From positions 62,001 to 126,000 of the forward strand of contig NZ_VXDC01000006.1 in assembly GCF_008711285.1 (NCBI RefSeq): a stretch of 64,000 nt of DNA, written 5' to 3'. Positions 43,219-49,103 of this stretch are shown piece by piece. Each line of letters begins with the position of its first letter. Position 1 is the stretch's first letter. Below the pieces are notes generated by a model. That model was not told the origin of the DNA, did not search any database, and was given only the letters and a program-made list of their open reading frames with translations. The position numbers were made by a program, and so were the translations under genes. This DNA is from Roseibium aquae. GTDB taxonomy: Bacteria; Pseudomonadota; Alphaproteobacteria; Rhizobiales; Stappiaceae.

Positions 43219-43600
43219 GGGGTAGCCCCCTTTCCATATCTTCAGCTGCAGCCGCGCGCATGCTGTTCGGCGCGCTGCAGGTTCACGTCGCAGGGTGCTG
43301 CAAAAGCACTCGTCCGCCTCAGGTTTGGAGCCCGAGGGGGAGCGGCTTTAAACAGCGACGGTTGGGCGAAACCGCTCGAACTGGAGCAGCGCGCTTTCCC
43401 GCGTCGGAAATGCCGTTGATTGGATCGGAAGACCGAACCGCACGTCGGGCAAGGATGTAACAAGTGCCTCTTCTGTTACCCCGGGGGTTGGAGACCCCGG
43501 CAGAGACCAAAAGGGCCCTCTTACGTCGTTGCTTTCAGCCGTCCGGATTGACTGCCCCGCCCCTTGGCGGTGTTTTACGGCAGCTACCCCTTAAGAGATC
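43219..43600 (-). promoter_or_regulatory. Structured 5' leader of the decarboxylase (speF-type candidate)
   Basis: On the minus strand, GCTACCCC (43226-43219) touches the start codon and can pair locally with the GGGG of the ribosome site (GGGGGCTACCCC). About 360 nt upstream, GGGGTAGC (43590-43583) is perfectly complementary to it. A GC-rich hairpin (CCGGGG, 7-nt loop, CCCCGG; 43481-43500) lies between them. Alphaproteobacterial ornithine decarboxylase genes often carry the speF leader RNA, so this may be one. No exact match was tested. Confidence 0.55.
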
Positions 43601-44102
43601 CGAGTTATGGACAGATCCAAGTGTCGAACCCCATGAACGGCCACGGGCACGTGCGAATTTGGGCAGCGCGTAGATAAGCGACAATAATCCGCAGCGCAAG
43701 CGCTTTTTGCCAAAAAACGCATCGGTGGCGATAGCGGCCGGCGATTGCCGGGCGGCGACAACCGGACCGCCCCACTCAGCGTGCTGGGGAGCCGTTGCGC
43801 GGCTCGCCGGACCAGCGCCCGCCCTGCCGGCCATCCCTGCCCTCCGACCGGTCGCAGGTGCCTTTCGCGCAAATCCGGCGCGCAGATCCGGCGGCCCCTT
43901 CCGGCGCGGGAAATTTTAGTTTGGGAGCAGGCCCCGGATCGCCTTGCGAGCGACGGCGGAACACTCATGGAGGGGTCGTGTGCAGGGACACGGCAACGGG
44001 GGGCTGGGGGCGGGCGGACAAACGCCTCGGCCCCAAACGGGACGCAATTCCTAATTTAAATTTTATACTGACATATATCTTAAGTGGTGATAACTTCCGC
44101 GA
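43601..44102. other. Intergenic region, no gene seen
   Basis: About 500 bp between the decarboxylase leader and the RiPP precursor. The first part is GC-rich with no coding signature. The last 60 bp (44040-44102) is AT-rich, with TTTAAATTTTATACTGACATA, and is the likely promoter zone of the precursor gene. Confidence 0.5.
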
Positions 44103-44117
44103 GTGACGTAAAGTCAC
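44103..44117. promoter_or_regulatory. Candidate operator upstream of the RiPP precursor
   Basis: GTGAC, 5 bp, GTCAC is a perfect inverted repeat just downstream of an AT-rich promoter-like zone and 24 bp before the precursor ATG. No repressor gene is near, so it is only a candidate. Confidence 0.25.
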
Positions 44118-44140
44118 CTTTACTTATAAGGGAGATGATC

Positions 44141-44485
44141 ATGGAAGACAATGAAGTTGCCAAACTTCTAGCCGATGCCCAGGTGGGAATTGGCGCGGCT
44201 TTGAAAAACATGAAAAAGAGCGGCGTCGCCATTGGCGGTCTGGCCGCCGGGGCGGAGGCGGCGGCCGGCAACCTGGCCTGCGATTCCGGCTGTGATGCCC
44301 TTGCGCTCGGCGCGGAGCGCGACATGAAGGTCAAGCGGGTCATTGAACTGGAGAACTTCGCCGCGTCGAAGGGCGGTCAGCTTGAACTCCAGAAAATCCT
44401 GAAAACCGGACCGGAAGTCGCGGGCCACAACCTCGGCTGCGATTCCGGCTGCGGCTCCGAGGCGTTTGTGAAGACCCTCCGCTGA
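44141..44485 (+). CDS. Candidate RiPP precursor with duplicated CDSGC core
   Basis: 114 residues; ATG 8 bp after AGGGAG. The N-terminal part (MEDNEVAKLLADAQVGIGAA) is helical with a glycine/alanine-rich end. Two similar cores follow: AGNLACDSGCDALALG (about 42-57; C47 and C51) and AGHNLGCDSGCGSEAFV (about 94-110; C100 and C104), separated by a charged helical linker. The core motif is N-L-[AG]-C-D-S-G-C. There are no other cysteines. With a radical SAM/SPASM gene immediately downstream, this fits a ribosomally made, enzymatically modified peptide. I know of no class with this core. The product and cleavage site are unknown. Confidence 0.75.
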   Translation: MEDNEVAKLLADAQVGIGAALKNMKKSGVAIGGLAAGAEAAAGNLACDSGCDALALGAERDMKVKRVIELENFAASKGGQLELQKILKTGPEVAGHNLGCDSGCGSEAFVKTLR

Positions 44486-44534
44486 CCGGCTGCCGCACAA
44501 CCTATCGGTCATGCAACTTGCGCGAAGCGGGCGT

Positions 44535-44577
44535 CGCGGTCCCGAAGCTGTTTTCGAAAAGCGGCTCCGGGACCGCG
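44535..44577 (+). terminator. Perfect hairpin between precursor and maturase genes
   Basis: CGCGGTCCCG (44535-44544) pairs with CGGGACCGCG (44568-44577). The inner 23 nt also fold (AGC with GCT, TTTT with AAAA). No T-run follows, so it may act as a partial terminator or mRNA stabiliser that keeps precursor transcripts in excess over the enzyme, a known RiPP operon feature. Confidence 0.55.
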
Positions 44578-44638
44578 ATGCGGAAAAGCGTCCAAGCGGG
44601 CCGCCGTCTGCCGGGAACGGGGGGATCGGGAGAGGTGA

Positions 44639-45985
44639 ATGTTGAAGCTGTCCAAGTACTGCATCGCGTCCGAGCCTTTTGGAGATTTTGCCTCGGGTGA
44701 CACCAAACATGTCCTTTTGTCCGGCCGGACCGGCGAAATAAGGGTGATTGGCGCGCAAGGCTGGGACCTGCTCAGCGCGCCGGACTTTTCGGGCAACGAT
44801 CTACCGGGGGATCTGCGCTACGAGCTCATGTCCATCGAGGCGCTTGTCCCCGAGCAGGAAGACGAATTGACCGTCATCCTGGACCGCAACCGGGCCGCGC
44901 AGGAAGACACCGGCCAGTTCTATCTGGTGATTCAGCCAACGGCCTCGTGCCAGCTTGGCTGCGGCTATTGCGGCCAGGCCCATACCAGCCAGAAACTCGA
45001 CGATCTCGACACGGACCGACTGGTCACCATGGTCTCCGAGAAGCTGGAAACCGGCCGGTTCGAGCATTTTCAGGTCGGCTGGTTCGGGGCCGAACCGCTC
45101 AACGCGCTTTCAAAGATTTACGAGCTCAGCGTCGCATTCGAGAAAGCCGCCGCAAAAGCCGGTTGCAGCTACGGCGCGAAAGTGGTCACGAACGGCATGA
45201 AGCTTACCGTGCCCACGGCCCTGAAGCTGGCGCGTGAAGCCGGTGTCCGGCTTGTCGAGATCACTCTCGACGGCGATCGGGAGTTTCACGACAAGCGCCG
45301 TTTCACAAAGAAAAACCAACCCTCCTTCGACCGGATCTACGGCAATCTCTTGAAGGTTGCCACGCACCCGGACATCGATTTTCAAATCAACATCCGCGCC
45401 AATGTGGATGAGCACAATGTGGAGGGCGTGTTCGCGCTGATCGACCGCTTGGCATCTGACGGGCTGCAAGAGCGGATCCGGTTCTACACCGCGCCGGTCC
45501 ATTCCTGGGGCAACGATGCGCATCTTCAGGCCGTGGAACTGGCTCGTTACGCGAAATGGGAACTCAATTGCCTCGCCTATCTGGTGAACAGGGGGTTCCG
45601 CTCAGGTCTCGTCCCAAACCGCAAGAACGTCGTCTGCATGGCCGCGATGAAGAACGGATTGCTGGTCGATGCCTACGGGGAAGCCTTCGACTGCACGGAA
45701 GTCTCCTATGTGCCAGCCTACGGGTCTGACAATACCTACAAGATCGGCACCTTGGCCGAGGGAATAGATGCGAACAAGCGCAAGATCTTTTCGGAGTATC
45801 TGGGCAATGTGAAATCGGGCGAATTGCCCTGTGCGTCCTGTGAAATCCTGCCGATCTGCGGCGGCTCATGCCCCAAGCAATGGAATGAAGGCCTCACCCC
45901 CTGCCCGCCGACCAAGCTGAACATCCGTGGCCGCCTCCTGCTGCACTATTGCGCGTCCAAAATCCGTGAAGAGATCCCCGCGTGA
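44639..45985 (+). CDS. Radical SAM/SPASM peptide-modifying enzyme
   Basis: 448 residues; ATG after GGGAGAGG. The radical SAM cluster is C104-x3-C108-x2-C111 (ASCQLGCGYCGQ). The usual GGE motif reads GWFGAEPL. The C-terminal SPASM domain has about seven cysteines: NVVCMAAMKNG, AFDCTEV, LPCASCEILPICGGSCPKQW and TPCPPTK, enough for two extra 4Fe-4S clusters. The N-terminal 95 residues may bind the leader peptide. It lies 153 bp after the precursor and is translationally coupled to the next gene by GTGA. Sactipeptide- or ranthipeptide-like crosslinking is plausible, but the exact chemistry is unknown. Confidence 0.85.
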   Translation: MLKLSKYCIASEPFGDFASGDTKHVLLSGRTGEIRVIGAQGWDLLSAPDFSGNDLPGDLRYELMSIEALVPEQEDELTVILDRNRAAQEDTGQFYLVIQPTASCQLGCGYCGQAHTSQKLDDLDTDRLVTMVSEKLETGRFEHFQVGWFGAEPLNALSKIYELSVAFEKAAAKAGCSYGAKVVTNGMKLTVPTALKLAREAGVRLVEITLDGDREFHDKRRFTKKNQPSFDRIYGNLLKVATHPDIDFQINIRANVDEHNVEGVFALIDRLASDGLQERIRFYTAPVHSWGNDAHLQAVELARYAKWELNCLAYLVNRGFRSGLVPNRKNVVCMAAMKNGLLVDAYGEAFDCTEVSYVPAYGSDNTYKIGTLAEGIDANKRKIFSEYLGNVKSGELPCASCEILPICGGSCPKQWNEGLTPCPPTKLNIRGRLLLHYCASKIREEIPA

Positions 45986-47034
45986 CGCCCGGAAACGGCA
46001 AGACCGCGCCGAGACGAAGCCCCGCCGGGACAAGGGTTGCGACAAGGAAGGGGAGCGCGCAGGTGGCGCGGCTGCTCGACACCGCCCAACGTGCCCTGCA
46101 GCCCGCGTCCGGCCAGCCAGACGCCGCCTCGTTCGACCGTCAGTTTACCGAAGAGCTGATGCGGATCGTACCGGAAACGGACATCATCGCCCTGCAGGCC
46201 TGCGCCCTGCGCCGCAAGACAGCCCTTTCTCATGCCCGCCAGGGAGCGCGCCGCCAATCCGCGCAGGTCTTTTCGGAAATCCGGCAGCTTCTGGCAGGAG
46301 CCCGGCTGGCGGCGCCCACCCAATTGACGATTTCATCGTTTCTCGCCTCCGCCGAAGCCTATCACCATTTCAAGTTCAACGAGCGCGGCGAAGACACGGC
46401 GAAGCTGATGCTGTCCCTGCGGCTGGACCGCGTCCTCCATGACCGCTACCGGCTCGAGTCCATCGATATTCATCGCCTGCAGACCGTGTCCAACTTTGCC
46501 CGGATGAAAAAGGCGGACGGCGACCTGCCGGGCGCCCTCCGCCTGCTCTGGCAGGGCATTTTGTATTGCAACGCGGACAGGTCTGCGTGGCCCTTTCCCG
46601 AACTGGCCCTGCGCCGGACGGGCGTCCGCGGATCCGCGGTCTGGACAACGATGGCGGGGCAGCTTCTGGGGGAATTCGCGCTCATCATCTCCGAAACCCA
46701 ATCAGGCCCCCGGCGCGGCGAGGTCATGGCCTGTCTCAAAAGCCTTTCGGCCGATGCGGGGGCACCGCTGCCCGAGGCCTGCCGCGCGGCGGTCAGCGCC
46801 AAACACGCCTTGTTGAGCGGAGACGAGACCGGGGTTCTCGCCGGAGCGGAACACGCCCTCAGCGCAGGTTTTCACGACAACCCGCTCGTTTGCCTCTTGC
46901 TGCTGAGGGATGCGCGGCAGGTCCTCGAGCAAACCAGTCCGCGCGATGCGAAGATCCTGGTCAAGCTGATGGATCAGGCCCGGGCCAGTTTCCAGAGGAT
47001 CCCGAAGCTTTTGCTGGAAGCGGCCCCCGCCTGA
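45982..47034 (+). CDS. Unrecognised helical protein coupled to the radical SAM enzyme
   Basis: 350 residues from a GTG that overlaps the maturase stop (GTGA). No known family. After a basic start (TAPRRSPAGTRVATRKGSAQ), it is nearly all helical with repeated leucine/alanine patterns (FSEIRQLLAGARLA, LMLSLRLDRVLHDRYRLESI, ADGDLPGALRLLWQGILYC, TMAGQLLGEFALIISE). This suggests an alpha-solenoid or TPR-like protein. No membrane span, protease or transporter motif. Coupling implies it works with the enzyme, perhaps as leader-binding partner, second-step enzyme or immunity factor. Confidence 0.6.
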   Translation: MTPGNGKTAPRRSPAGTRVATRKGSAQVARLLDTAQRALQPASGQPDAASFDRQFTEELMRIVPETDIIALQACALRRKTALSHARQGARRQSAQVFSEIRQLLAGARLAAPTQLTISSFLASAEAYHHFKFNERGEDTAKLMLSLRLDRVLHDRYRLESIDIHRLQTVSNFARMKKADGDLPGALRLLWQGILYCNADRSAWPFPELALRRTGVRGSAVWTTMAGQLLGEFALIISETQSGPRRGEVMACLKSLSADAGAPLPEACRAAVSAKHALLSGDETGVLAGAEHALSAGFHDNPLVCLLLLRDARQVLEQTSPRDAKILVKLMDQARASFQRIPKLLLEAAPA

Positions 47035-47117
47035 GCCATGCCGCGCGCCGAATAGTCTTGACCTCACCTTAACTCGAGGCCCCAAAGACCTGTGTCCCTG
47101 CCATCAGGAGACACGCG

Positions 47118-47534
47118 ATGATCCCCAAACAAGACGCCGCCGAATGGCTGAGAGCCTACGGGCAAGCCTGGATCGACGGCGACCCGACAGCCGTGGCCGC
47201 GCTTTTCGGAAGCGCTGCGGCGTATCACGAAACGCCGTTCGACCCACCCCTGAAAGGCACCGCCGCCATCCGGTCCTACTGGCAGGCCGGTGCCGCCGAA
47301 GCCCAGGCAGACGTGACCTTCGAAAGCGAGATCTGGAGCTTGTCGGGCAGTGTGGTGATCGCCGGATGGCGGGCCGCTTTCACCCGCATTCCCTCCGGCG
47401 CCCGCGTGGACCTCGACGGCGTCTTCCGGCTTGTGCTGAAAGAGGACAACGGCACCGTGCTCTGTACAGAGCTGCGGGAATGGTGGCACCGCAAGGAGCA
47501 CCCCCGTCTCCAACCCTTCCATGAGACGGCTTGA
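47118..47534 (+). CDS. NTF2/SnoaL-like protein
   Basis: 138 residues. Opens MIPKQDAAEWLRAYGQAWID with GDPTAVAALFGSAAAYHETP, then PPLKGTAAIRSYWQAGAAEA and IWSLSGSVVIAGWRAAFT. These are the cone-shaped NTF2-like fold elements of SnoaL and ketosteroid-isomerase-like proteins. Possible isomerase or ligand-binding protein; role unknown. 83 bp after the RiPP-locus protein in the same direction, with its own AGGAGA ribosome site, so it may or may not belong to that operon. Confidence 0.78.
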   Translation: MIPKQDAAEWLRAYGQAWIDGDPTAVAALFGSAAAYHETPFDPPLKGTAAIRSYWQAGAAEAQADVTFESEIWSLSGSVVIAGWRAAFTRIPSGARVDLDGVFRLVLKEDNGTVLCTELREWWHRKEHPRLQPFHETA

Positions 47535-47925
47535 ACCTAGCCTGCACCATCTGGGGTCACATGTGCGGTTTTTAAGATGCCAGCCGGGCGGATCACTCGG
47601 TGTGCAGCGGTCGGGCACCGTTACCGGCGTCAGCTTGACGTGTCACCGCAAGGGCAGCGGGCAATGGCACAGGGCTGTCCGCCCCAAGGCGTATGGACGT
47701 CTTTTTCACCGACTGCGACCGGTTGCGCGCAACCAACTAAATGTATTCAATCGGAGTTTTATGTATTCTTATGTATACACACCATATTCTTATATCACAT
47801 CTTTGCGTAAATCAAAGTTTACACCATGTCATTTTGACGCACATTCACGATAACGAAAACCAGAATGACCGCGTATCCGTAAATCATCCAAATAAAAATA
47901 CTTGGGGGAAAAGTAACTCTGAAAC
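47535..47925. other. AT-rich intergenic region upstream of a small ORF
   Basis: The first half holds GC-rich sequence without a gene. From about 47740 to 47925 the DNA becomes strongly AT-rich (repeats of TATGTAT and TTCTTATAT) with several stop codons in all frames. It may contain the promoter for the small gene that follows. Confidence 0.45.
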
Positions 47926-48045
47926 ATGGATACACACATGGCTGAACTTGCATTCCCGCTGCTGAACACGGTTATTCTGAGTGCCCCGCTTGCCTATTTG
48001 TACGCCGATCAGGCGTTCAACAGGGGTAGCAAATCCGGCAAGTAA
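47926..48045 (+). CDS. Possible 39-residue small membrane protein
   Basis: ATG-started frame of 39 codons: MDTHMAELAFPLLNTVILSA then PLAYLYADQAFNRGSKSGK. One hydrophobic helix (about 7-25) and a basic end suggest a single-pass small membrane protein. GGGGGAAAAG lies about 15 bp upstream, rather far for a ribosome site. It ends 7 bp before a strong hairpin, which supports transcription of a short unit here. No homologue is recognised. Confidence 0.4.
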   Translation: MDTHMAELAFPLLNTVILSAPLAYLYADQAFNRGSKSGK

Positions 48046-48052
48046 CAACCTG

Positions 48053-48075
48053 CGCCCGGCAGCCAATGCCGGGCG
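48053..48075 (+). terminator. Hairpin after the small ORF
   Basis: CGCCCGGCA (48053-48061) and TGCCGGGCG (48067-48075) form a perfect 9-bp stem with a 5-base loop. Only a weak T-run follows (TTGTC). It lies between convergent genes and may terminate both. Confidence 0.5.
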
Positions 48076-48098
48076 TTGTCAATGGTTTACGCAGAGGA

Positions 48099-49103
48099 TC
48101 ACACCTTCTCGAAAAGCGCCCTGAGAGCCGGATGGATGACCGGGCTTTCCTCGCTGATGAAACGCAACAGCGCCTTTTCATTGTCATGCAGCACGCCGTC
48201 GCGGCCAATGCGCTCGACCAGCCATTCGGCCTCCGTTTCGGTGACGACTTCATTGACGGCAATTTCGGCTTCCATGGCTGCGCCGCGCGCGGCCGCCGCA
48301 TCCGGCTCATCCTCGCGATATGCATCGCGAATGCCGGCCAGCCCCCCGCCGAACATCGCACGGAAGAACCCTTTCATGCCCCCATCGAAGCCACCTTCAC
48401 CGGCCAGCCAGTCCTCCCGGGCCAGCGCAACCTCCCGCGGCGGCGGGGTGAAACCTGACAGGGCCATCACATGGTTGGCGATCGCCTTTGCGAACAACTC
48501 CGACCAGGCCGGTGCGTTGCGGGCCTGCGACGTGGCTTCGTTGATATCGAACAGAACTTCCGCCTCGGGACGCGAGATCGCGATACTGCCGCACCCTGCC
48601 CCGGCATAGAGCAGACGGCGAAGCAGTTCCACCTCTCCATCCAAGATCACGCCGGGCTCAAGATCGTGACCGCCACGGGTTGCACCTGTTCCGCTGATGA
48701 CCGAGTCCTTCACGATCCGCAACGCGAAGACCTCAAGGGCTCGCGGAGCCTGGCGGGCCTTTTCCAGGACATGGATGACAGCATCGAGTTCGGTGCGGGT
48801 GCACACGCGCCCGTCATGAGAGACGGCCCGGATCAGCCAAGCGGCCAAATCCTCGGTGATGTAGCCGGCCGGGTGCACCTGGTGGACCAGCAGATCCGCC
48901 ATCGCTTCGGGAAACAGCTCGTGCCAGGCGGAGTCGGCATCCGAGACCTGCTCGTTCAACCGGAACAGCCCGGCCGCTTCCGCAAGGCTGACAGCACCAT
49001 CGCCGCCGTAAATCGCCTGCCGCAGCCGGCGCACATCCTCGCTGGCGACCTTGCCCCTTGCTGCGATCTCATCAATCAGCGTGCTCAGCGCGTGTTCCGG
49101 CAT
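48099..49103 (-). CDS. Conserved hypothetical protein with duplicated helical halves
   Basis: 334 residues from ATG at 49103, with GGAGG about 10 bp upstream; the frame opens further upstream without family signs. MPEHALSTLIDEIAARGKVA, then SEDVRRLRQAIYGGDGAVSL. Two similar segments exist: an AEAAGLFRLNEQV...WHELFPEAMADLLV half and an AEVLFDINEAT...WSELFAKAIANHVM half. This suggests an internal repeat of an all-helical domain. I recall such proteins as uncharacterised in Hyphomicrobiales. No membrane span and no enzyme motif. Confidence 0.65.
   Translation of the reverse strand: MPEHALSTLIDEIAARGKVASEDVRRLRQAIYGGDGAVSLAEAAGLFRLNEQVSDADSAWHELFPEAMADLLVHQVHPAGYITEDLAAWLIRAVSHDGRVCTRTELDAVIHVLEKARQAPRALEVFALRIVKDSVISGTGATRGGHDLEPGVILDGEVELLRRLLYAGAGCGSIAISRPEAEVLFDINEATSQARNAPAWSELFAKAIANHVMALSGFTPPPREVALAREDWLAGEGGFDGGMKGFFRAMFGGGLAGIRDAYREDEPDAAAARGAAMEAEIAVNEVVTETEAEWLVERIGRDGVLHDNEKALLRFISEESPVIHPALRALFEKV

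Follow-up and report, generated by a model that had tools for sequence, protein, structure and literature searches.

A predicted peptide-modifying cassette of Roseibium aquae with a duplicated NLxCDSGC small protein, a radical SAM/SPASM enzyme and a TPR-like partner

Results

This analysis concerns three forward-strand genes in a 64,000-nucleotide stretch of the Roseibium aquae genome (contig NZ_VXDC01000006.1, positions 62,001 to 126,000; hereafter the window), which a first-pass annotation had proposed as a candidate locus for a ribosomally synthesized and post-translationally modified peptide (RiPP). The first open reading frame (ORF; 44141-44485, +) encodes a precursor-like protein of 114 amino acids (aa), and the good ribosome site that had been claimed for it is present as GGGAG 5' of its ATG. 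The protein has no match in Pfam or NCBIfam. It starts with the N-terminal segment EVAKLLADAQVGIGAALK and contains two copies of the motif NLxCDSGC, namely NLACDSGC at residues 44-51 (core 1) and NLGCDSGC at residues 97-104 (core 2), with a spacer in between. The duplication of CDSGC noted in the first-pass annotation is borne out by these two copies and by the alignment score of the two protein halves, which was reached by 0 of 5000 shuffles. At the DNA level, the gene has an internal repeat of 46 nt with 78% identity.

We compared this gene with its counterpart in a Roseibium metagenome-assembled genome (Roseibium sp. HXMU1420-7, JAEPNV010000003.1; locus L005, corresponding to genome G058). 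The two small proteins share 72% amino acid identity, and the 98 nucleotide differences between the genes are distributed over codon positions 1, 2 and 3 as 26, 13 and 59. Nonsynonymous and synonymous divergence (dN and dS) amounted to 0.19 and 2.07 with NG86 and to 0.20 and 1.20 with YN00, with dS near saturation here as in the other gene comparisons with L005. The small ORF evolves as a constrained gene under purifying selection. Its N-terminal segment and both cores are nearly invariant between the two loci, and conservation spans the entire length of the protein and not the cores alone.

The second gene (44639-45985, +) encodes a radical S-adenosylmethionine (SAM)/SPASM enzyme of 448 aa, which is a predicted peptide maturase on the basis of PF04055, TIGR04085 and its position in the tree described below. 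The CxxxCxxC motif reported earlier is formed by C104, C108 and C111 (PF04055, 37.5 bits; cut-off 29.5), and the cysteine-rich SPASM domain (TIGR04085, 38.6 bits; cut-off 27) by C333, C352, C398, C401, C407, C411 and C422. Seven cysteines make up the motif of a SPASM domain, and these seven are, together with the CX3CX2C motif, invariant across a four-row alignment. The enzyme matches 49 NCBIfam models, and the NCBIfam scores given here are all among the best 25 of these, within which the SPASM domain model is the only one to exceed its cut-off. The best family model, TIGR04463, reached 196.9 bits against a cut-off of 525, and those for geopeptide (127.3 against 400), Clo7bot (TIGR04334; 122.5 against 600) and CefB (106 against 600) maturases likewise stayed below theirs. 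Judged by their names, the nearest curated families are maturases of Cys-rich peptides. Two further assignments were considered and rejected. An anaerobic sulfatase maturase scored 67.1 bits against a cut-off of 349 (TIGR03942) and is placed apart in the tree; the objection, raised with the original proposal, that the enzyme might belong to a sulfatase-maturase clade so far fails at this score. A QhpD-type enzyme of protein maturation scored 53.8 bits against 453 (TIGR03906) and falls outside in the tree. No sulfatase was noticed among the neighbouring ORFs, just two of which were domain-searched. Between the window and L005 the enzyme is 69% identical (dN 0.27, dS 2.32); its predicted structure was too poor for use (mean predicted local distance difference test score, pLDDT, of 50).

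The third gene (45982-47034, +) encodes a partner protein of 350 aa and is coupled to the enzyme gene as had been described, its GTG start lying inside the GTGA at the enzyme stop. AlphaFold2 models it as an all-helical protein of 15 helices (mean pLDDT 71) that resembles a tetratricopeptide repeat (TPR). No Pfam or NCBIfam family exceeded its cut-off, and identity to the L005 protein is 40% (dN 0.65, dS 1.76). The locus had also been noted to lack a protease or exporter gene, and indeed no such domain was found by Pfam and NCBIfam in the cassette proteins. Peptidase_C39, the one protease domain looked for at genome scale, was absent from the whole genome, with a control that was positive in 8 of 14 genomes.

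A hairpin occupies the gap between the first two genes (44531-44581, +). The first-pass annotation had described it as a perfect hairpin of 43 bp, which proved incorrect: the stem consists of 14 + 9 = 23 pairs, counting G-U pairs, is interrupted by a single mismatch and closes on a loop of 3 nt, and its DNA arms (44531-44554 and 44558-44581) are 83% complementary. Folding z-scores of the precursor-enzyme gap were -2.9 in the window, -2.7 in L005 and -2.1 at the Rhizobium etli locus introduced below (L007), all with strong stems, and the corresponding gap of genome G1317 measures only ~35 nt. A terminator scan gave no entry at the window stem. The hairpin possibly serves transcript processing or attenuation.

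All three genes recur in the same order in L005, amid different neighbours. Among 87 genomes of the family, the precursor profile, a close enzyme and the partner profile were each found in two, and these are the same two genomes in every case: the window's own and G058. This agrees with the proposal of a joint precursor and radical SAM/SPASM locus, and since the small protein never occurred alone, the objection that it might be widespread without the enzyme fails within the family. One further genome, G041, contributes an enzyme relative of 33% identity and has no precursor or partner matches. In wider, partly overlapping samples, the enzyme profile found one genome of 397 from the order (its own) at E <= 1e-70, two of 385 from the class and four of 398 from the phylum at 1e-45, and one of 384 from the family of G219 at 1e-55. 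The cassette is rare. Viral carriage was rejected, as 32 pattern matches in viral contigs included no relative, and so was a role as a defence system, the three window proteins having no PADLOC match at E <= 0.01.

In a plasmid search, in which the precursor had no match at E <= 1 and the partner none at E <= 0.1, the best relative of the enzyme came from Rhizobium etli IE4803 (38% identity over 99%). The R. etli plasmid locus (IE4803_PB00015-PB00010; L007) encodes a peptide of 77 aa, the enzyme, a peptide beta-hydroxylase of the aKG-HExxH type (TIGR04267, 47.2 bits; cut-off 40), a JmjC protein (JmjC_2, 83.9 bits; cut-off 22), a 298-aa protein and a GNAT protein, all annotated in generic or hypothetical terms only. 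Genome G1317, from the same taxonomic order, holds a second copy of the set, consisting of a peptide of 72 aa, the enzyme, an HExxH protein (TIGR04267, 51.3 bits; cut-off 40), a 395-aa protein that to the eye is JmjC-like (searched against NCBIfam, with no match), a protein of 301 aa and an ORF that by eye is GNAT-like. Profile-profile comparison matched the partner family to the R. etli/G1317 pair of 298 and 301 aa (E 1.7e-07, probability 94%, 192 columns) and to the R. etli protein alone at E 2.3e-05, so that the partner is to be regarded as a conserved companion of the enzyme clade and not as a chance neighbour. The loci of R. etli and G1317 are thus like the window in having a small peptide, a same-clade enzyme and a homologous partner, but differ in their extra HExxH, JmjC and GNAT genes and in having a single NSGC unit.

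The two peptides of R. etli and G1317 are 44% identical, share an identical AFVDFNSGCGK, and each have a single Cys, within FNSGCG. The CDSGC core proposed in the first-pass annotation needs refinement: as its first Cys is not conserved in these peptides, the minimal unit looks like [N/D]-x-x-C, with two units in a row in the window core. NLxCDSGC accordingly looks like a tandem of NLxC and DSGC, as far as its sequence can tell.

Next to the R. etli cluster (L007 94-1719), a nucleotide cyclase gene adjoins a cyclic nucleotide-binding/TIR-like gene, a combination that we take to resemble a Pycsar-type defence pair. The R. etli enzyme itself matched two viperin models of PADLOC at 36 and 33 bits, which we took as a reflection of the common radical SAM fold.

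The enzyme tree comprised 22 chosen rows: the window, L005, five loci from other genomes, and 15 rows from 14 of 15 fetched plasmid regions, which were themselves a selection among 77 and 128 matching records. It leaves out L032 and, for L014 and L016, the first of their radical SAM genes; it was rooted at its midpoint and contains several long branches. The enzymes of the window, L005, R. etli and G1317 formed a clade (97/98), and together with G041 and a Streptomyces plasmid enzyme a clade of six (96/94), within which the joining of the Streptomyces enzyme was weak (86/65). This clade of six stands apart from the TIGR04463/CefA clade with a Thermus enzyme (98/97), from the Clo7bot enzyme and from QhpD, anSME and CbpB. 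An earlier 21-row tree without G1317 gave identical groups.

The two more distant members of this clade have settings of their own. In G041, the ORF just before the enzyme relative (L006 8629-8967) matches HU/IHF DNA-binding domains (PF00216, 40.2 bits; cut-off 22.4) and has a C-terminal Cys. In the enzyme (L006 8987-10954), CX3CX2C is lengthened by an insertion to CX3CX8C, and there is a 210-aa extension; its gene is followed by those for a 2-oxoglutarate (2OG)-FeII oxygenase and a CmcI-like methyltransferase. We considered this C-terminal extension as a fused partner and rejected it (E 0.034 over 13 columns against the partner family). On the plasmid of Streptomyces sp. NBC_01281, an unannotated 33-aa ORF ending in LDLNGNC lies directly 5' of the enzyme (L008 3747-3848), and the enzyme is followed by a class I methyltransferase, a SagB/ThcOx dehydrogenase and a major facilitator superfamily (MFS) transporter (L008 3989-8532), an arrangement like that of a RiPP cluster.

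In its own genome, the window cassette appears to be an insertion. In three relatives (G037, G050 and G060) collinearity with the window extends on the left to 43.67 kb and resumes from 48.1 to 52 or 53 kb, and in place of 43,666-48,105 they carry ~0.8, ~0.8 and ~2.0 kb, respectively. Because these three relatives are without the segment from 43.67 to 48.1 kb between collinear flanks, the cassette looks inserted, together with a SnoaL-like gene (47118-47534). The latter occurs in 1 of 45 genomes of the genus and is absent from G058, and we therefore assign it to the inserted stretch and not to the system. The gene to the left of the cassette, decarboxylase-like and present in 45 of 45 genus genomes, is one that we take to be an ornithine decarboxylase gene, by recognition and from its speF leader. 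Of the 19 decarboxylase loci retrieved from other genomes, 11 include the region upstream of this gene, with homology to the window ending at 43,665-43,675 in all 11, and the remaining eight cover the downstream side only. A speF leader (43369-43502, minus) and an ar45 small RNA (43511-43664, minus) precede the decarboxylase-like gene, and the relatives' homology stops about ten bases or less from the end of the ar45 match.

The fetched regions also contained other radical SAM loci with small or Cys-rich proteins. In Aminobacter (L016 2085-5320) and in G121 (L014, minus), near-identical peptides of 78 and 76 aa ending in GCDSCTVCPCMICW precede two radical SAM genes and may represent another orphan family of Cys-rich peptides. 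Long CefA-like proteins with a Cys at about every fifth residue lie beside TIGR04463-like enzymes in L009 (1690-5269), L025 (2805-5456) and L026 (minus). Plasmid p8 of Sarcina sp. JB2 (9,996 bases; L018) carries a radical SAM enzyme and an MFS transporter with no annotated precursor. On a plasmid of Rhizosphaericola mali (L031 769-5823), five small hypothetical genes are followed by a radical SAM enzyme and a peptidase-containing ATP-binding cassette (ABC) transporter, in what seems to be a multi-precursor RiPP-like cluster.

Discussion

Altogether, the three genes very probably form a peptide-modifying cassette whose substrate is the small protein. We give an even chance to the fuller reading, in which the locus would be a RiPP cassette with a predicted chemistry that includes beta-thioethers from Cys to the Asn or Asp at position -3. 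The observed basis of this reading is the joint inheritance of three genes, those for the small protein with its two NLxCDSGC cores, for the radical SAM/SPASM enzyme and for the partner with its helical repeats. The conserved N-terminal segment would then be a leader, bound by the enzyme, by the TPR-like partner acting as a peptide chaperone or delivery factor, or by both. On the strength of the motif and its kin, the enzyme would take a beta-hydrogen from Asn44, Asp48, Asn97 and Asp101, and each of these residues would be joined to the Cys three residues downstream, i.e. to Cys47, Cys51, Cys100 and Cys104. The result would be two adjacent four-residue beta-thioether rings per core, with a loss of 2 Da per ring and of 8 Da in total. 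Bonds of this kind are described in earlier work: in NxxcA of Streptococcus orisratti, the thioether made by NxxcB runs from Cys23 to the beta-carbon of Asn20 (PMC8326336, PMC13361665), and the Cys-Asp beta-thioethers of freyrasin are made by a radical SAM/SPASM enzyme (PMC8326336, PMC11002830).

The position of Asn and Asp speaks for such rings. The six candidate peptides of the enzyme clade contain 12 Cys, and for 11 of these the residue at -3 is Asn or Asp (4/4 in the window, where Asn precedes two Cys and Asp the other two, 4/4 in L005, 1/1 each in R. etli, G1317 and Streptomyces, and 0/1 in G041). When the window, R. etli and Streptomyces peptides were taken together (6/6 Cys), shuffles in which the Cys were held in place reached this figure in 1 of 60000 cases at -3 and in 2 of 60000 when every offset up to 6 residues was allowed; the corresponding numbers were 0 and 2 of 60000 with G041 added (6/7) and 4 and 56 of 100000 for the window alone, all for an offset picked after inspection and with a true significance that is lower because one window core duplicates the other. 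These two limits weigh against the beta-thioether reading, and so do several other observations. The Streptomyces ORF, ending in LNGNC, was chosen by eye from 35 ORFs, and the only Cys of the G041 peptide breaks the rule with a Val at -3. Elsewhere, Asn or Asp at -3 was found for 0/28 and 0/16 Cys of two CefA-like proteins, 0/5 in Aminobacter and 8/37 in six Clo7bot peptides. The alignment score of the window and R. etli precursors was reached by 2287 of 5000 shuffles (15 of 5000 for L005 and R. etli), and hhalign of the Roseibium pair against the R. etli/G1317 pair gave E 0.039 and aligned off-core; the two types of precursor do not align outside the core, and homology over their full length found no support. 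The enzyme scored 89.1 bits with the PapB ranthipeptide model (NF047865; cut-off 340), the likeness to NxxcA/NxxcB is one of precursor motif, and neither an exporter nor a protease domain was found in the cassette proteins. As to PapB and freyrasin, their order is opposite to that of the window, with the acceptor downstream of the Cys.

A different chemistry in the same RiPP cassette is conceivable but in our view unlikely. The enzyme might read S-G-C and not the residue at -3, and might form a sactionine (Cys to alpha-carbon), an epimer, or a Ser-Cys or backbone heterocycle. This would fit with S49, G50 and C51, which are invariant and among just seven such columns in an alignment of four precursors, and radical SAM enzymes are indeed described as making alpha-thioethers and D-residues (PMC8326336) and thiooxazole (PMC11002830). 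It fits less well with the Asn or Asp at -3 of all four Cys in both Roseibium peptides, which is there even where no S-G precedes the Cys (NLxC), and with the NGNC of the Streptomyces candidate, which likewise has Asn at -3.

Two further explanations concern the fate of the small protein, and both are improbable. The better of them gives the TPR-like partner the role of a receptor for peptides or of a regulator, like NprR and Rap, and makes the product an internal signal and not an exported compound. Slightly less plausible still is the view that the enzyme matures the small protein as a structured protein and that no peptide is cut out of it, by analogy with the quinohemoprotein amine dehydrogenase gamma subunit, in which QhpD makes Cys-Asp/Glu thioethers. 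The lack of a protease or exporter in the cassette and the conservation across the whole small protein would suit such a protein, and the QhpD model does match the enzyme at 53.8 bits. Against this stand the cut-off of that model (453 bits), the placement of QhpD outside with anSME and CbpB, and the peptide-like appearance of the one-Cys kin of 72-77 aa; moreover, no amine dehydrogenase gene was noticed beside either Roseibium locus when ORFs were inspected by eye. That the two C-x3-C pairs are disulfides or a metal site and the enzyme acts on another substrate is very improbable, given that precursor and close enzyme occur only together in the 87 genomes and that the peptides from R. etli and G1317 contain just one Cys each.

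Should the beta-thioether reading hold, we would tentatively propose a new alphaproteobacterial RiPP class in which one radical SAM/SPASM enzyme forms back-to-back Asn-Cys and Asp-Cys rings (N-x-x-C-D-x-x-C) twice per 114-residue precursor, with a previously undescribed TPR-like protein as its dedicated leader-binding or delivery factor and with the NSGC unit of R. etli and G1317 further tailored by two different hydroxylase-like enzymes. Both the NxxC bond and RiPPs made by radical SAM/SPASM enzymes are already known; within the libraries and papers searched, the novelty lies in the enzyme clade, in its family of TPR-like partners and in the tandem arrangement of the N/D core. In the open-licence literature, we found no paper on TIGR04463, on Clo7bot or on a Roseibium radical SAM/SPASM RiPP. 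If true, the reading would extend beta-thioether RiPPs to Roseibium-like and rhizobial alphaproteobacteria, enlarge by the TPR-like family the set of accessory factors that serve radical SAM RiPP enzymes, and provide in [N/D]xxC a readable code that predicts crosslinks ahead of experiment. The one-unit precursors of the R. etli type and the two-by-two-unit precursors of Roseibium would then be a natural series for the choice of Asn or Asp by one clade, and the HExxH and JmjC genes a test case for stacked modifications around one short core.

Among known systems, the nearest curated enzyme family is that of the TIGR04463/CefB-type maturases with their CefA peptides, in which every fifth residue is a Cys, yet these form a separate clade of the same tree, and in the two CefA-like proteins counted Asn or Asp stands at +3 or -2 relative to Cys and never at -3, unlike in the window. 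Clo7bot/CtpM (TIGR04334) is the third-best NCBIfam model, and three of six Clo7bot peptides contain T-N-S-G-C; they differ from the window precursor in their length of 41-53 aa, their 4-7 Cys and the infrequency of Asn or Asp at -3. The closest parallel in motif is the NxxC ranthipeptide system NxxcA/NxxcB, described as likewise having an Asn three residues before a Cys and a small precursor that is the substrate of a radical SAM/SPASM enzyme (PMC8326336, PMC13361665, PMC9012708). The earlier statement that no class is known with an NLxCDSGC core can thus be upheld for the tandem core, which is new as searched, but not for the Asn(-3)-Cys geometry, which has its precedent in NxxcA. What sets the Roseibium locus apart from NxxcA/NxxcB is a precursor of 114 aa, the presence of two cores that each form a tandem Asn and Asp unit, and the TPR-like partner.

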